From: a virus
Virus record (IMG/VR): IMGVR_UViG_3300042906_000698
Coordinates: 1 to 21,754 of that record
Direction: 5' to 3' (one strand)
Length of the DNA stretch: 21,754 bases
In this document: piece after piece, positions 4,406 through 8,033 of the stretch
Layout: every line of letters begins with the position of its first letter
Numbering within the stretch: the first letter of the stretch is position 1
Position numbers and translations under genes: made by a program
Notes under the pieces: model-generated
Told to the model about the DNA's origin: nothing
What the model saw: the letters and a program-made list of their open reading frames with translations, nothing else
Database searches by the model: none

Positions 4406-4480
4406 CGCAGGTAGGTCAAGTTGACCCGAATGGTCTCATAAGCCATATCGAGAGTGGAGCGTTACCACTACCTGCAACCA
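4406..4480 (+). tRNA. Divergent initiator-tRNA-like cloverleaf, anticodon CAT
   Basis: A four-arm cloverleaf can be drawn. Acceptor: 4407-4412 pairs perfectly with 4470-4475, and C4406 faces A4476, the unpaired C1/A72 that marks bacterial initiator tRNA. It ends in A plus CCA (4478-4480). The anticodon arm (4430-4446) has five pairs and the loop CTCATAA, identical to bacterial tRNA-fMet, with CAT at 4437-4439. The T stem (4453-4457/4465-4469) is perfect. Both elbow loops are abnormal: the D-arm is a tight hairpin (4415-4425) without the G18-G19 pair, and the T loop is AGCGTTA rather than TTCRANY. It may be a functional initiator tRNA, a decoy, or an RNA element in the leader of the 4501 gene. 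Confidence 0.65.
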
Positions 4481-4500: not shown

Positions 4501-4950
4501 ATGTTACATTTAATAGAATCACTAACTGATAAATTTTTTGACTTGTTGAATCAAGATCCGGTACGCCCGAATATTCCACATGTGGACCGAATTGGTCCTA
4601 ATAAAGATATTTTTGTTTTCCGTGATGCTGATGATAAAGTTAAAGCTATTACATGTGTGAGTTATCAACATTCAATTCCAACAAAGGAATCTGAATTATT
4701 TGAAAATACAGACACTCCTAACGTAGCCGTATTTTACACAATCTGGTCATATGTGCCAGGTGCTGGTCGTACATTGATTTTTGATGCGGTTCGCCACATT
4801 AAAGAGACAAGGCCGGAAATTACAAGATTTGTGACTTTAAGTCCAAAGACTGAAATGGCTAAACGTTTTCATACAAAGAATGGTGCAGGTGTTTATCGTG
4901 AAAACATCGAAACTGTTAATTATGAGTATGAAAAAGTGGAAAATACTTGA
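4501..4950 (+). CDS. GNAT-fold acetyltransferase-like protein (149 aa)
   Basis: The sequence resembles a GNAT-like family of T4-type phages: LNQDPVRPNIP near the start, a VKAITCVSY strand, then VAVFYTIWSYVPGAGRTLIFDAVRHIKE (the pyrophosphate-binding-loop/helix region) and a C-terminal RFVTLSPKTEMAKRFHTKNGA. GNAT enzymes transfer acyl groups from CoA; the substrate is unknown and catalysis is not shown. There is no clear ribosome-binding site; the 20 nt between the tRNA-like element's CCA and the ATG are AT-rich. Processing of the tRNA-like element could therefore create a short mRNA leader. Confidence 0.65.
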   Translation: MLHLIESLTDKFFDLLNQDPVRPNIPHVDRIGPNKDIFVFRDADDKVKAITCVSYQHSIPTKESELFENTDTPNVAVFYTIWSYVPGAGRTLIFDAVRHIKETRPEITRFVTLSPKTEMAKRFHTKNGAGVYRENIETVNYEYEKVENT

Positions 4951-5258: not shown

Positions 5259-5332
5259 TCCCGAATGGTGTAGTGGTAGCACAGCAGACTTTGACTCTGT
5301 TAGTATAAGTTCGATTCTTATTTCGGGTGCCA
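5259..5332 (+). tRNA. tRNA-Gln (TTG)
   Basis: Cloverleaf with anticodon loop CTTTGAC, T loop TTCGATT and encoded CCA. The first pair is a T1/T72 mismatch; the discriminator is G. First gene of the array. Confidence 0.93.
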
Positions 5333-5365
5333 TATAAAAACATATTGTGAAGTGTGTTTCTATAT

Positions 5366-5453
5366 GGAAGTGTGGTCGAGTGGTCTATGGCTCTAGTCTT
5401 GAAAACTAGCGATTCGAAAGGATCCGTGAGTTCGAATCTCACCGCTTCCGCCA
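5366..5453 (+). tRNA. tRNA-Ser (TGA)
   Basis: Acceptor GGAAGTG/CGCTTCC with G discriminator and encoded CCA. Anticodon loop CTTGAAA, long class II variable arm, T loop TTCGAAT. Confidence 0.95.
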
Positions 5454-5457
5454 AATT

Positions 5458-5546
5458 GGAGAGTGGGCAGGATGGTAATGCAGCAGATTGCTAATCTGTC
5501 ATCGGATTAAACCGGTGAGTGGGTTCGATTCCCACACTCTCCGCCA
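5458..5546 (+). tRNA. tRNA-Ser (GCT)
   Basis: Acceptor GGAGAGT/ACTCTCC, G discriminator, encoded CCA. Anticodon loop TTGCTAA and a long variable arm (CATCGG...CCGGTG) of the serine type. Confidence 0.95.
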
Positions 5547-5547
5547 T

Positions 5548-5623
5548 GTAGGTGTGACCTGAAAGGCTAGGGAGCGGATTGCAAATCCGTATAATGCAGG
5601 TTCGAGTCCTGTCACCTACTCCA
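5548..5623 (+). tRNA. tRNA-Cys (GCA)
   Basis: Acceptor GTAGGTG/CACCTAC, the U73 typical of cysteine tRNA, encoded CCA, anticodon loop TTGCAAA, T loop TTCGAGT. Confidence 0.95.
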
Positions 5624-5673
5624 TTTGAAAACAAAAGTATTGTTGTATAAAAACAACGATGCTAAAATAGTTG

Positions 5674-5701
5674 TTGACTAAATGTGTGGTTCATGTATAA
5701 T
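5674..5701 (+). promoter_or_regulatory. sigma70 promoter inside the tRNA array
   Basis: TTGACT (5674-5679), 16-nt spacer, TATAAT (5696-5701). The predicted start at 5708 is again an ATG, opening a six-codon mini-ORF that stops at TAG inside the leader repeat. A GTTGT/ACAAC stem (5642-5646/5653-5657) lies upstream. It should transcribe tRNA-Glu onward. Confidence 0.85.
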
Positions 5702-5709
5702 ACACACAT

Positions 5710-5735
5710 GTTATTTAAAAAGTTGTAGAGTTAAT
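5710..5735 (+). repeat. boxA-like leader repeat, copy 2
   Basis: Same 26-nt element as at 5229-5254 with two substitutions (GTTATTTAAAAAG at the start, then TTGTAGAGTTAAT). It begins two nt after the predicted transcription start of the 5674 promoter and ends four nt before tRNA-Glu. Confidence 0.6.
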
Positions 5736-5739
5736 TTTT

Positions 5740-5814
5740 GCTCCGTTCGTCTATCGGTTAGGACGCTGCCCTTTCAAGGCGGAAAGACCAGTTCGATTCT
5801 GGTACGGAGTACCA
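5740..5814 (+). tRNA. tRNA-Glu (TTC)
   Basis: Acceptor GCTCCGT/ACGGAGT with a G1-T72 wobble, encoded CCA, anticodon loop CTTTCAA, T loop TTCGATT. Its ACCA end is also the outer end of the 21-bp inverted repeat that follows. Confidence 0.94.
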
Positions 5815-5935
5815 TTTGTTTTGCTGACGTAAGCGCCTGAGTAAACGTCAACTCTAACTAACTATGTACATAAACGGTAATGCTGCAGCTAATTCCGTTG
5901 AGCATAGCAAATAGTGCGTCAGCAAAACAAATGGT
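5811..5935 (+). other. 125-nt element closed by a 21-bp inverted repeat
   Basis: 5811-5831 pairs with 5915-5935 over 21 positions, with only one G-T pair; 18 bp (5812-5829/5917-5934) are perfect. Inside, CTATG/CATAG and AACGG/CCGTT form a second stem, and GAGT/ACTC a small third hairpin, so the RNA can form a three-way junction. The left arm includes the ACCA of tRNA-Glu. No ORF lies inside. It may be an RNase III processing structure, an ncRNA, or a small inverted-repeat insertion; no target duplication is seen. Confidence 0.6.
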
Positions 5936-5940
5936 TGTTT

Positions 5941-6015
5941 GGAGGCATAACTTAACGGCTAAAGTAACTGGCTTTTAACCAGTAAATCAGAGTTCGATTC
6001 TCTGTGCCTCTACCA
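5941..6015 (+). tRNA. tRNA-Lys (TTT)
   Basis: Acceptor GGAGGCA/TGCCTCT (G1-T72 wobble), encoded CCA, perfect anticodon stem ACTGG/CCAGT around CTTTTAA, T loop TTCGATT. Confidence 0.95.
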
Positions 6016-6024
6016 GTAGAATTT

Positions 6025-6109
6025 GGAGATGCCGCCGTAATGGTATGGCAGGAGACTGTAAATCTTCCGACTTAGGTCACAATAGGTTCGATCCCTATCA
6101 TCTCCACCA
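6025..6109 (+). tRNA. tRNA-Tyr (GTA)
   Basis: Acceptor GGAGATG/CATCTCC, A discriminator, encoded CCA. Anticodon loop CTGTAAA, class II variable arm, T loop TTCGATC. Confidence 0.94.
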
Positions 6110-6113
6110 AATT

Positions 6114-6188
6114 GGTTTCAAAGTGTTCACGGACGCACGCTAGCTTGTCACGCTAGAAGAAGGGGATCGTTACCCCTTGAGACCGCCA
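6114..6188 (+). tRNA. tRNA-Asp (GTC) with unusual T loop
   Basis: Acceptor GGTTTCA/TGAGACC, G discriminator, encoded CCA. Anticodon stem CTAGC/GCTAG around TTGTCAC. The T stem AGGGG/CCCCT is perfect but its loop is ATCGTTA, so T54 and A58 are exchanged for A54 and T58. The D loop keeps GG. Confidence 0.92.
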
Positions 6189-6197
6189 AGTTTTTAT

Positions 6198-6272
6198 TCC
6201 ACAGTAGCACAGCGGTAGTGCAGTTGACTGTTAATCAATTGGTCGTAGGTTCGATCCCTGCCTGTGGAGCCA
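6198..6272 (+). tRNA. tRNA-Asn (GTT)
   Basis: Acceptor TCCACAG/CTGTGGA, G discriminator, encoded CCA. Anticodon loop CTGTTAA, T loop TTCGATC. Confidence 0.95.
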
Positions 6273-6277
6273 ATATC

Positions 6278-6354
6278 GGGGACGTGATGGAATTGGTATA
6301 CGTGTTGGTCTTAGAAGCCAAATTTTGTGAGTTCGAGTCTCACCGTCCCCACCA
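6278..6354 (+). tRNA. tRNA-Leu (TAG) lacking the long variable arm
   Basis: Acceptor GGGGACG/CGTCCCC, A discriminator, encoded CCA, anticodon loop CTTAGAA. The D-arm is leucine-like (GAATTGGTA) but the variable region is only five nt (ATTTT, 6322-6326) instead of the usual stem. Confidence 0.92.
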
Positions 6355-6358
6355 ATTT

Positions 6359-6432
6359 GCCCTTTTAGTATAATGGTATTACGCCTGTTTTGTAATCAGG
6401 TTACGGCAGTTCGATTCTGTCAAGGGGCACCA
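6359..6432 (+). tRNA. tRNA-Thr (TGT)
   Basis: Acceptor GCCCTTT/AAGGGGC, A discriminator, encoded CCA. Anticodon loop TTTGTAA above a T-T mismatch at the top of the stem; T loop TTCGATT. Confidence 0.93.
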
Positions 6433-6437
6433 ATTTT

Positions 6438-6511
6438 CTCGGTATAGTTTAATGGTAGAATTCGTGGTTTGGGACCATGTGATGGAAGTTCGATTCTTCC
6501 TACCGAGACCA
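6438..6511 (+). tRNA. tRNA-Pro (TGG)
   Basis: Acceptor CTCGGTA/TACCGAG, A discriminator, encoded CCA. Anticodon stem CGTGG/CCATG around TTTGGGA, T loop TTCGATT. Confidence 0.94.
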
Positions 6512-6516
6512 GTTAT

Positions 6517-6590
6517 GGGGAATTAGTATAATGGGATTACGGCAGCTTTGCAAGTTGTTTATGGGAGTTCGATTCTCCCATTCTCCACCA
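6517..6590 (+). tRNA. tRNA-Ala (TGC)
   Basis: Acceptor GGGGAAT/ATTCTCC contains the G3-T70 wobble that identifies alanine tRNA. A discriminator, encoded CCA, anticodon loop TTTGCAA, T loop TTCGATT. Confidence 0.95.
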
Positions 6591-6594
6591 TTCA

Positions 6595-6669
6595 GGTTCA
6601 GTAGCACAGCGGTAGTGCAATTGCTTCATACGCAATAGGTCGTTGGCTCGAATCCAACCTGAACCACCA
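6595..6669 (+). tRNA. tRNA with CAT anticodon (Met or Ile2), copy 1
   Basis: Acceptor GGTTCAG/CTGAACC, A discriminator, encoded CCA. Perfect anticodon stem ATTGC/GCAAT around TTCATAC. The T loop is CTCGAAT. The acceptor is fully paired, so it is not an initiator. Elongator Met and lysidine-modified Ile2 cannot be told apart with certainty; the AGGTCG variable region leans to Ile2. Confidence 0.9.
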
Positions 6670-6675
6670 AGTTAC

Positions 6676-6750
6676 GGGCGATTAGTAAAATGAATATTAC
6701 ACAAGGCTACGAACCTTGAAGTGGGAGTTTGATTCTCTCATCGCCCTCCA
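6676..6750 (+). tRNA. tRNA-Arg (ACG)
   Basis: Acceptor GGGCGAT/ATCGCCC, T discriminator, encoded CCA. Perfect anticodon stem CAAGG/CCTTG around CTACGAA. A34 would need conversion to inosine by host TadA. The T loop TTTGATT has T instead of C56. Confidence 0.92.
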
Positions 6751-6954
6751 GAACCAGCTAAGGTAACGCTTGGCTACTGTGACACGCAGGAAGTGAAGTG
6801 AGTTCGTTACTCAAGTGTGGTACTACTCTTACCGAAGTAGCGTTGGCAATACGAGAATTCTTTTTGGTCGGGAAGCGGGTGGAAGGTACATGGGAGAGGT
6901 ATGATAGCGTCATATCTTTTCGTACTATAATTACCGCCGCAGAAAGAAAGCAAT
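6751..6954 (+). other. 204-nt gap in the tRNA array without a supported gene
   Basis: No protein ORF with a credible start and no standard tRNA is visible. Local hairpins are CTACT/AGTAG (6823-6827/6836-6840), TATGA/TCATA (6900-6904/6910-6914) and TGAG-TTCGTTA-CTCA (6799-6813), the last resembling a T-arm with a CGTTA loop as in tRNA-Asp. A lone TATAAT at 6926-6931 lacks a -35 box. It may be decayed tRNA sequence or an unrecognised structured RNA. Confidence 0.4.
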
Positions 6955-7029
6955 GCCGTTGTAGCTCAGAGGAAGAGCATTCGCTTGATAAGCGAAAGGC
7001 CGACATTTCGAAATTGTCCAACGGTACCA
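6955..7029 (+). tRNA. tRNA-Ile (GAT)
   Basis: Acceptor GCCGTTG/CAACGGT (G1-T72 wobble), A discriminator, encoded CCA. Anticodon stem TTCGC/GCGAA around TTGATAA; T loop TTCGAAA with a T-T mismatch at the top of the T stem. Confidence 0.93.
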
Positions 7030-7034
7030 ATTTT

Positions 7035-7108
7035 ATCTCGCTGGTGTAATGGCAGCACGATGGTCTCCAAAACCATTAGTCGGGGTTCGAGTCCCTGGCG
7101 GAATGCCA
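7035..7108 (+). tRNA. tRNA-Trp (CCA)
   Basis: Anticodon stem ATGGT/ACCAT around CTCCAAA, G discriminator and encoded CCA. The acceptor ATCTCGC/GCGGAAT has one C-A mismatch and one T-G pair. T loop TTCGAGT. Confidence 0.92.
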
Positions 7109-7127
7109 AGTTTTAAAGGTTGTCAAT

Positions 7128-7616
7128 ATGAAAAAATTCGATATAGAAGAAGTCAAACAGTTCCTTGCAAAACAAGGACCAAACACCAAAGTATATCTTG
7201 GTGCTGATTCAGAAAGAATCAGAGTGAATGAAGTTTGGTATGCTGACTACGCTTTAGCTGTTGTAGTTCATATTGATGGTTGTCATGGTTGTAAGATTTT
7301 TGGTTTTGTTGACCGTGAATTAGATTACGACCATAAAAAAAGTAAACCTGCTATGCGTCTAATGACAGAGGTGTACAAGGTTTCAGAATTGTTCCAATCA
7401 CTACAGGATGTGTTGGAAGATTATCATGTTGAAGTCCATTTGGACTTAAATAAATCAGATGAGTTCGGTAGTTCTTGTGTTGTTCAGCAAGCAATTGGTT
7501 ATATCAAAGGTACATGTAACATGACACCAATGGTTAAACCTGATGCACCTGCGGCTTCATTCTGTGCAGACCGTTTAAAACGGATTCTAGCAGAACAAGA
7601 ATTGTCAACTATATAA
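7128..7616 (+). CDS. YkuK-like (DUF458) RNase H-fold protein (162 aa)
   Basis: The sequence follows the layout of Bacillus YkuK (DUF458, predicted RNase H fold): an early acidic motif GADSE with D27, a two-strand segment YALAVVVHI, a helix with MTEVYKVSEL, then VEVHLDLNKSDEFGSSC and IKGTCNMTPMVKPDAPAASFCADR. The acidic residues in the first strand and in VHLDLN are the expected metal ligands of the fold. Nuclease activity is a prediction. AAAGG lies before the ATG. It is embedded between tRNA-Trp and tRNA-Gly on the same strand, which suggests a role in RNA maturation or degradation, but this is inference. Confidence 0.72.
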   Translation: MKKFDIEEVKQFLAKQGPNTKVYLGADSERIRVNEVWYADYALAVVVHIDGCHGCKIFGFVDRELDYDHKKSKPAMRLMTEVYKVSELFQSLQDVLEDYHVEVHLDLNKSDEFGSSCVVQQAIGYIKGTCNMTPMVKPDAPAASFCADRLKRILAEQELSTI

Positions 7617-7622
7617 AAATAT

Positions 7623-7696
7623 GCGGGATTAGTTTAGGGGCAAAACAGCAGATTTCCAATCTTCGGTCATCGGTTCGATTCCGATATCCCGCTCCA
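7623..7696 (+). tRNA. tRNA-Gly (TCC)
   Basis: Acceptor GCGGGAT/ATCCCGC, T discriminator, encoded CCA, anticodon loop TTTCCAA (one C-T mismatch in the stem), T loop TTCGATT. Confidence 0.93.
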
Positions 7697-7702
7697 GTCA
7701 AT

Positions 7703-7778
7703 GCAGTTGTTAGTGTAAAGGTTAACACCACGGATTGTGATTCCGTTAATATGGGTTCGATTCCCATACTTCTGCCCA
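7703..7778 (+). tRNA. tRNA-His (GTG)
   Basis: An extra G at -1 (7703) faces C73, the hallmark of histidine tRNA. Anticodon stem ACGGA/TCCGT around TTGTGAT, encoded CCA. The acceptor has two adjacent T-T mismatches (positions 4/69 and 5/68). Confidence 0.92.
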
Positions 7779-7782
7779 ATTC

Positions 7783-7857
7783 ACATCGTTAGCTCAGCGG
7801 TAGAGCAGGGCCCTTACAAGGCCAAGGTCAAAAGTTCAATCCTTTTACGATGTACCA
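7783..7857 (+). tRNA. tRNA-Val (TAC)
   Basis: Perfect acceptor ACATCGT/ACGATGT, A discriminator, encoded CCA, anticodon loop CTTACAA, T loop TTCAATC. Confidence 0.94.
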
Positions 7858-7858
7858 A

Positions 7859-7877
7859 ATTAACTCTACAAATTTTT
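7859..7877 (-). repeat. Inverted copy of the 19-nt tRNA-leader repeat
   Basis: ATTAACTCTACAAATTTTT is the exact reverse complement of 5236-5254. It fills the space between tRNA-Val and tRNA-Arg. The TTCTTT portion of the boxA-like element is absent here. Confidence 0.7.
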
Positions 7878-7952
7878 CTGGCCTTAGTATAATGGATAAT
7901 ACAGTTGCCTTCTAAGCAATCAATACAGGTTCGATTCCTGTAGGCCGGGCCA
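7878..7952 (+). tRNA. tRNA-Arg (TCT)
   Basis: Acceptor CTGGCCT/AGGCCGG, G discriminator, encoded CCA, anticodon stem GTTGC/GCAAT around CTTCTAA, T loop TTCGATT. Confidence 0.94.
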
Positions 7953-7957
7953 ATTAC

Positions 7958-8033
7958 ACGCTTGTAGCTCAATGGTTAGAGCAGGAAACTCATAATTTCT
8001 TGGTTGGGGGTTCGAGTCCCTTCGAGCGTACCA
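7958..8033 (+). tRNA. tRNA with CAT anticodon (Met or Ile2), copy 2
   Basis: Acceptor ACGCTTG/CGAGCGT, A discriminator, encoded CCA. Anticodon loop CTCATAA, T loop TTCGAGT. Fully paired acceptor, so an elongator-type tRNA. Together with 6595 one copy probably reads Met and the other, with lysidine, Ile AUA. Confidence 0.92.

Follow-up and report, generated by a model that had tools for sequence, protein, structure and literature searches.

A probable phage initiator tRNA whose compacted elbow is re-coded, and the coupled A18/G55 switch among its relatives

Introduction

The bacterial tRNA-fMet of the E. coli type shares with the element described here an open C1/A72, G2–C71, C3–G70, A73, R11:Y24, the CAU anticodon, G29–C41 and G30–C40. 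The element differs from it in U31·G39, A4–U69, a 5-nt D loop without GG, G55 in place of Ψ55, A54–U58 in place of T54–A58 and an anticodon stem that is longer by 3 bp. Natural initiators with imperfect G–C triplets exist. Eukaryotic initiator tRNAs resemble the element in carrying an initiator-only elbow change, A54 instead of T54 in the T loop but, unlike it, they keep the canonical 18–55 pair and GG and have another 1–72 pair.

The elbow is recognised by RNase P, RNase Z, the CCA-adding enzyme and all three ribosomal sites, and Ψ55 has been described as universally conserved (PMC4810234); in the summary given there of Pan et al. (2006), translocation depends on pair 18–55 in the P-site tRNA. 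Phage tRNAs that escape host nucleases are, like the element, encoded by phage genes altered relative to those of the host, but in them it is the anticodon loop that is changed, whereas the element has an altered elbow and an intact anticodon loop; where a nuclease targets tRNA-fMet, phages mostly do without a gene of their own for it (PMC10264068). Within the open-access literature we found no prior description of an A18–G55 elbow, of this phage initiator family or of a switched initiator in Patescibacteria.

Methods

Relatives of the element were sought with a pattern restricted to the loops of the anticodon and T arms and the two inner pairs of the T stem, which matched at least 120 stretches in IMG/VR; a variant of the pattern with a spacing of 18 instead of 16 caught members with long variable loops. 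The family set was built from IMG/VR stretches, 35 stretches of GTDB genomes (about 14 of which fold) and other fetched loci. A further route, via the GNAT-like neighbour, reached 80 phage loci, and the Patescibacteria loci came from searches with model R1 and a second model, R2, trained on both elbow states. Covariation was counted on a clean 18-row subset and on hand-segmented sequences because whole-family MAFFT alignment misplaced the anticodon 3′ strand. The scan for coupling between positions 18 and 55 covered 1,532 different tRNA sequences from these loci and was limited to those in which C56 follows U55 or G55; D loops were scored by a GG-first rule, a last-RG rule having misread canonical loops ('A,T' 135).

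Results

The window, that is, the whole 21,754-nt stretch of viral DNA analysed here (IMG/VR record IMGVR_UViG_3300042906_000698), carries at exactly 4406–4480, on the plus strand, a 75-nt cloverleaf (CGCAGGT A GGTC AAGTT GACC CGA ATGGT CTCATAA GCCAT ATCGAG AGTGG AGCGTTA CCACT ACCTGCA A CCA). Its parts and neighbours are as follows.

4406–4480, plus: probable phage-encoded initiator tRNA with a switched and compacted elbow, 75 nt, CCA encoded (ARAGORN, covariance model, family covariation)
4406–4412, plus: acceptor stem, 5′ strand, C1 unpaired (pairs 2–71 to 7–66 form in 95/95 relatives, the start position having been picked for best pairing)
4414–4426, plus: short D arm GGTC-AAGTT-GACC, the A-G read as A18 G19 and G11–C24 as R11:Y24 (family D loops)
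4427–4429, plus: D/anticodon linker CGA, which pairs with the variable-loop TCG at 4448–4450 (covariation)
4430–4446, plus: anticodon arm ATGGT-CTCATAA-GCCAT, anticodon CAT at 4437–4439, with G29–C41, G30–C40 and U31·G39 (covarying stem)
4453–4469, plus: T arm AGTGG-AGCGTTA-CCACT, with A54–U58, G55 and C56 (stem covaries; 55 coupled to 18)
4470–4476, plus: acceptor stem, 3′ strand, A72 unpaired opposite C1 (pairing and covariation in relatives)
4477–4480, plus: discriminator A73 and encoded CCA (A73 in 77/95 and CCA in 72/95 relatives)
4501–4950, plus: GNAT-like gene, 149 aa, outside the element, a marker of the phage clade (weak Pfam match)
5259–8033, plus: main array of 22 canonical tRNA genes (ARAGORN)

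The cloverleaf is the minimum-free-energy structure of 4406–4480 (−26.3 kcal/mol, z = −3.3), a stability equalled by one of 200 shuffled sequences, and ARAGORN labels it tRNA-Met(cat). The element scores 95.6 bits with its own covariance model, by construction, the window sequence being included in that model. Its anticodon stem consists of 5 bp and, beyond a bulged A, of the three pairs formed by linker and variable loop; this extension covaries, pair 24–43 being A–U in 9/18 and G–C in 9/18 sequences and 23–44 varying on both sides. An earlier reading made from the sequence only had pointed out the unpaired C1/A72, the 5-bp anticodon stem with its CTCATAA loop, the perfect T stem, the CAACCA end, the T loop AGCGTTA and the lack of GG in the D loop, all of which we read in the same way. 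Its three-nt D loop is one drawing only: the D arm of the family is a 4-bp stem with a loop of 3–5 nt (here AAGTT) and a conserved A-G inside.

The Rfam tRNA model RF00005 gave no match to 4406–4480 at its gathering threshold, and none when the local stretch was scanned at a cut-off as loose as E≤10. Among the matches listed, the same model finds the element in about 1/20 further loci, and ARAGORN detects 11/95 family members; standard tools miss most of the family.

Phage contigs, together with a small number of metagenome-assembled genomes, yielded 95 distinct cloverleaves that share the T loop, a lower bound that the search pattern biases towards AGCGTTA, the anticodon loop and C56 being likewise fixed by the pattern. 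In cultured phages, direct DNA similarity to the element yielded no full-length relative, the match in Av-05 covering only 50 nt at 78%. All four stems of the family covary. In the clean 18-row alignment, 96.5% of cells are paired (81.4% when shuffled) and double-sided changes occur in 67 cells, against 20.9 in shuffles, with sliding controls near zero; compensatory change among related loci, which the sequence-only reading had proposed as a check, is therefore borne out. The sole acceptor pair not kept is 1–72, which forms in 32/95 members, equal to shuffles (mean 30.8). The D loops of the family are AAGT, AAGC or ATAGN, and the close relatives L004–L006 and L012 carry the same element with altered stems.

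A subclass has offset or interrupted acceptor pairing and no encoded CCA (L303, L312, L337, L371, L322; L411, L414, L431; GCGAGGG...CCTACGCTACT; GCGGGTG...GACCCGCTACA). L411, L414 and L431 may be the chromosomal initiator, as the Patescibacteria contigs on which they lie gave no further R1 match at E≤0.01.

The elbow of the element is non-canonical in that the D loop offers A18 G19 and the T loop G55 C56, compared with the usual G18 G19 and Ψ55 C56; both bases of the outer pair, G19–C56, are thus present (C56 fixed by the search pattern). Counting sequences rather than independent events, the coupling scan found that of 1,332 tRNAs with U55, 1,300 have GG in the D loop, and that of 200 with G55, 185 have AG but no GG there. 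A further 12 G55 sequences were scored GG, most of them with an A-G as well; the G55 loops outside the 185 are mostly of the type AGGAGTA. The association holds for non-CAT tRNAs alone, across 33 anticodons (G55: 80 AG, 6 GG; U55: 9 AG, 1,217 GG). The replacement of G18–U55 by A18–G55 with G19–C56 unchanged is, judged by this coupling, a coordinated switch, and we infer the A18–G55 geometry from covariation. The elbow had earlier been called abnormal; its bases are indeed unusual, but the 18/55 coupling points to a coordinated alternative elbow rather than to an abnormality.

Intermediates are of two kinds. The near-identical L202 (AGGT with TTCGATT) and L004 (AAGT with TGCAATA) present both states on one shortened D arm, and in L528, L529, L537, L043 and L075 A18/G55 occurs in full-size D loops. 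The pattern TGCNATA gave 86 matches, about ten of which fold as true intermediates, most others being chance matches or protein-coding repeats. The flip of pair 54–58 from U–A to A–U was seen in 187 sequences, including the window's own tRNA-Asp. On a tree of the neighbouring protein, four changes are required to account for the full-size switched form, three or more of them forced by well-supported branches, and gene transfer could explain some of the four; the alternative elbow probably arose repeatedly, mostly in initiators, i.e. P-site tRNAs.

As a separate observation, the T loop of this tRNA-Asp, ATCGTTA, in which 54–58 is flipped to A–U and U55 is kept, is conserved across the phage clade (window 6114–6188; L527 811–886; L534 198–273; L535 76–151).

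Four loci (L084, L305, L425 and L442) have nearly all of their detected tRNAs or isoacceptors switched (12–14 vs 1–3 canonical per locus). Outside phages, G55 was found in 14/61 chromosomal initiators of Patescibacteria, all 14 with A18 by inspection, a proportion that is not a prevalence because part of the sample entered via R1, which favours the switched form. These initiators (e.g. L569, L575, L580 and L738) share with the element the open 1–72 and the combination of A18 G19 with G55 C56; they differ in being chromosomal, in mostly having a full-size D loop and in keeping T54–A58. They stand beside canonical elongator Met tRNAs, nearly all CAT elongators of the Patescibacteria loci being canonical. 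G55 was absent from the initiators of Planctomycetota (0/24) and of the phylum of the Izimaplasma genome (0/20). By these counts the switch is initiator-biased and extends beyond phages; among phages, it recurs in no fewer than a hundred besides the present one, and standard annotation overlooks nearly all of these cases.

Three further observations were made in these loci. A Verrucomicrobiales-binned contig (L543, G013:C259) holds several initiator-like copies with differing stems. A ROOL RNA (RF03087, 254.6 bits; L598, 2555–3072, minus strand) lies near the divergent initiator of a 133-kb phage contig, and a manA RNA motif (RF01745, 65 bits; L602, 559–728, minus strand) lies within a phage tRNA array.

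The marks of an initiator run through the family. A strong 1–72 pair is lacking in the window, where C1 faces A72, and G–C at 1–72 occurs in only 5/95 members, the other 90 having a mismatch or a weak pair. The formylation determinants G2–C71 (80/95 relatives), C3–G70 (92/95) and A73 (77/95) are all present in the window. R11:Y24 is found in 72/87 family members, as opposed to 46/863 elongators of the same loci. Two of the three G–C pairs of the initiator triplet are kept in the window, 31–39 being U·G there and in 60/95 relatives; U31·G39 recurs in full-size phage initiators, L015 among them, so this lineage would seem to do without a strict GGG/CCC.

The full-size initiators of sister phages (L015, L046, L533 and L534) share with the element the phage clade and C1/A72, and some of them also the U31·G39 anticodon stem, but have a canonical D loop with GG and a TTC T loop. 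The GNAT clade is represented by 14 records, nine with a full-size initiator and five with the switched form, none of these five having a second initiator match. A 157-kb relative has 23 tRNAs, of which the element alone is initiator-like, and two other CAT tRNAs are present; the window's array likewise holds two other CAT tRNAs (6595–6669 and 7958–8033, ARAGORN). Because five family members have a strong G1–C72, and L368, the one of these examined in a large contig, stands beside another initiator-like tRNA, some members may be elongators; the coexistence in L368 is as expected if 1–72 marks the role.

The element is 779 nt from the main array, in line with the 780 nt or so reported before. 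Other tRNAs on the same strand lie within 1.5 kb of 83/95 family members (median six); the arrays of L412 and L430, with 27–35 tRNAs, have the element placed precisely between tRNA-Glu and tRNA-Leu genes. Since members usually sit in tRNA arrays, we regard the element as a trans-acting tRNA and not as a leader of the GNAT-like gene. The product of that gene, which has at least 590 relatives in IMG/VR, weakly matches the Pfam MCD C-terminal domain (22.9 bits against a cut-off of 23.2).

Discussion

Comparative sequence analysis establishes the fold, its covariation, the initiator marks, the 18/55 coupling and the replacement of a full-size initiator in sister phages. On this basis, we consider it probable, at roughly 85%, that 4406–4480 is a working phage initiator tRNA whose elbow has been re-coded and compacted. 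Against this reading stand U31·G39 in place of a third G–C pair, the strong G1–C72 of five members and the fact that CCA is encoded in some but not all of the family. A phage initiator tRNA was one of the options of the sequence-only reading, and it is now strongly supported by the family-wide initiator marks, the alternation with full-size initiators and the location in arrays.

Considering that the elbow is altered and that some members lack an encoded CCA, the element might instead be a non-translating decoy of an initiator, reshaping host translation by binding formyltransferase, IF2, MetRS or RNase P. We find this unlikely and see no need for it, given that the anticodon loop is kept in 95/95 members (it is part of the search pattern), that A73 and CCA are usually kept, that the element replaces the full-size initiator in sister phages, and that elongators of 33 anticodons share this elbow, as do chromosomal initiators, which should be working tRNAs. 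A reading as an elongator Met or lysidine Ile2 tRNA could draw on the CTCATAA loop, common in such tRNAs, and on the few relatives with G1–C72; the open C1/A72, R11:Y24, the two other CAT tRNAs of the array and the alternation with full-size C1/A72 initiators make it very improbable, and we reject it on the initiator marks.

We also reject, from the context in relatives, a cis-acting tRNA-like leader that would control the GNAT-like gene 20 nt downstream, another of the earlier options and one with scant probability. Its close position speaks for it, as does the lack, observed before and seen again here, of an obvious ribosome-binding site in front of the ATG. Against it, a conserved position of the element before this gene was not found among relatives, in which the slot holds Ala, Leu, initiator or other tRNAs, coding sequence or no tRNA; the element of L057 is found at another place in the array, 1.4 kb upstream, and most family members belong to arrays of other arrangement. 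A decaying tRNA pseudogene, which the unusual loops and the failure of the Rfam model might suggest, is of negligible probability and is rejected on the compensatory changes in all stems and the constant loops across very divergent relatives.

As a working initiator, the element would be transcribed near the phage tRNA array and then trimmed, charged with methionine via its CAU anticodon, and presumably formylated, the open 1–72, G2–C71, C3–G70, A73 and R11:Y24 being in place; it would then reach the P site, where the synthesis of phage proteins would begin with it. A18–G55 in place of G18–Ψ55, together with the usual G19–C56, would hold its elbow, with 54–58 flipped and a D loop of only 3–5 nt. 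How the elbow came to change is a more speculative matter. One route may be relaxation, in that an initiator goes straight to the P site, bypassing EF-Tu and A-site accommodation, which might leave its elbow freer. Moreover, a T loop without U54 and U55 is no substrate for TrmA or TruB, and might perhaps escape host enzymes that read the elbow.

We suggest, tentatively and as a possibility we rather doubt, that these sequences represent a second self-consistent tRNA elbow, in which position 55 is naturally G together with A18 in hundreds of phage tRNA genes and in chromosomal initiators of Patescibacteria, which is favoured in initiators and in some phages extends to nearly the whole array, and which may protect translation in the phage against those enzymes or defences of the host by which the standard elbow is read or modified. 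Many phages that seemingly have no initiator tRNA would possess one that annotation has overlooked. Further, the elbow pair 18–55, treated as fixed, would have a natural alternative, which would make the purpose of the elbow directly testable, and the family may bear on the reasons why phages carry tRNAs at all.
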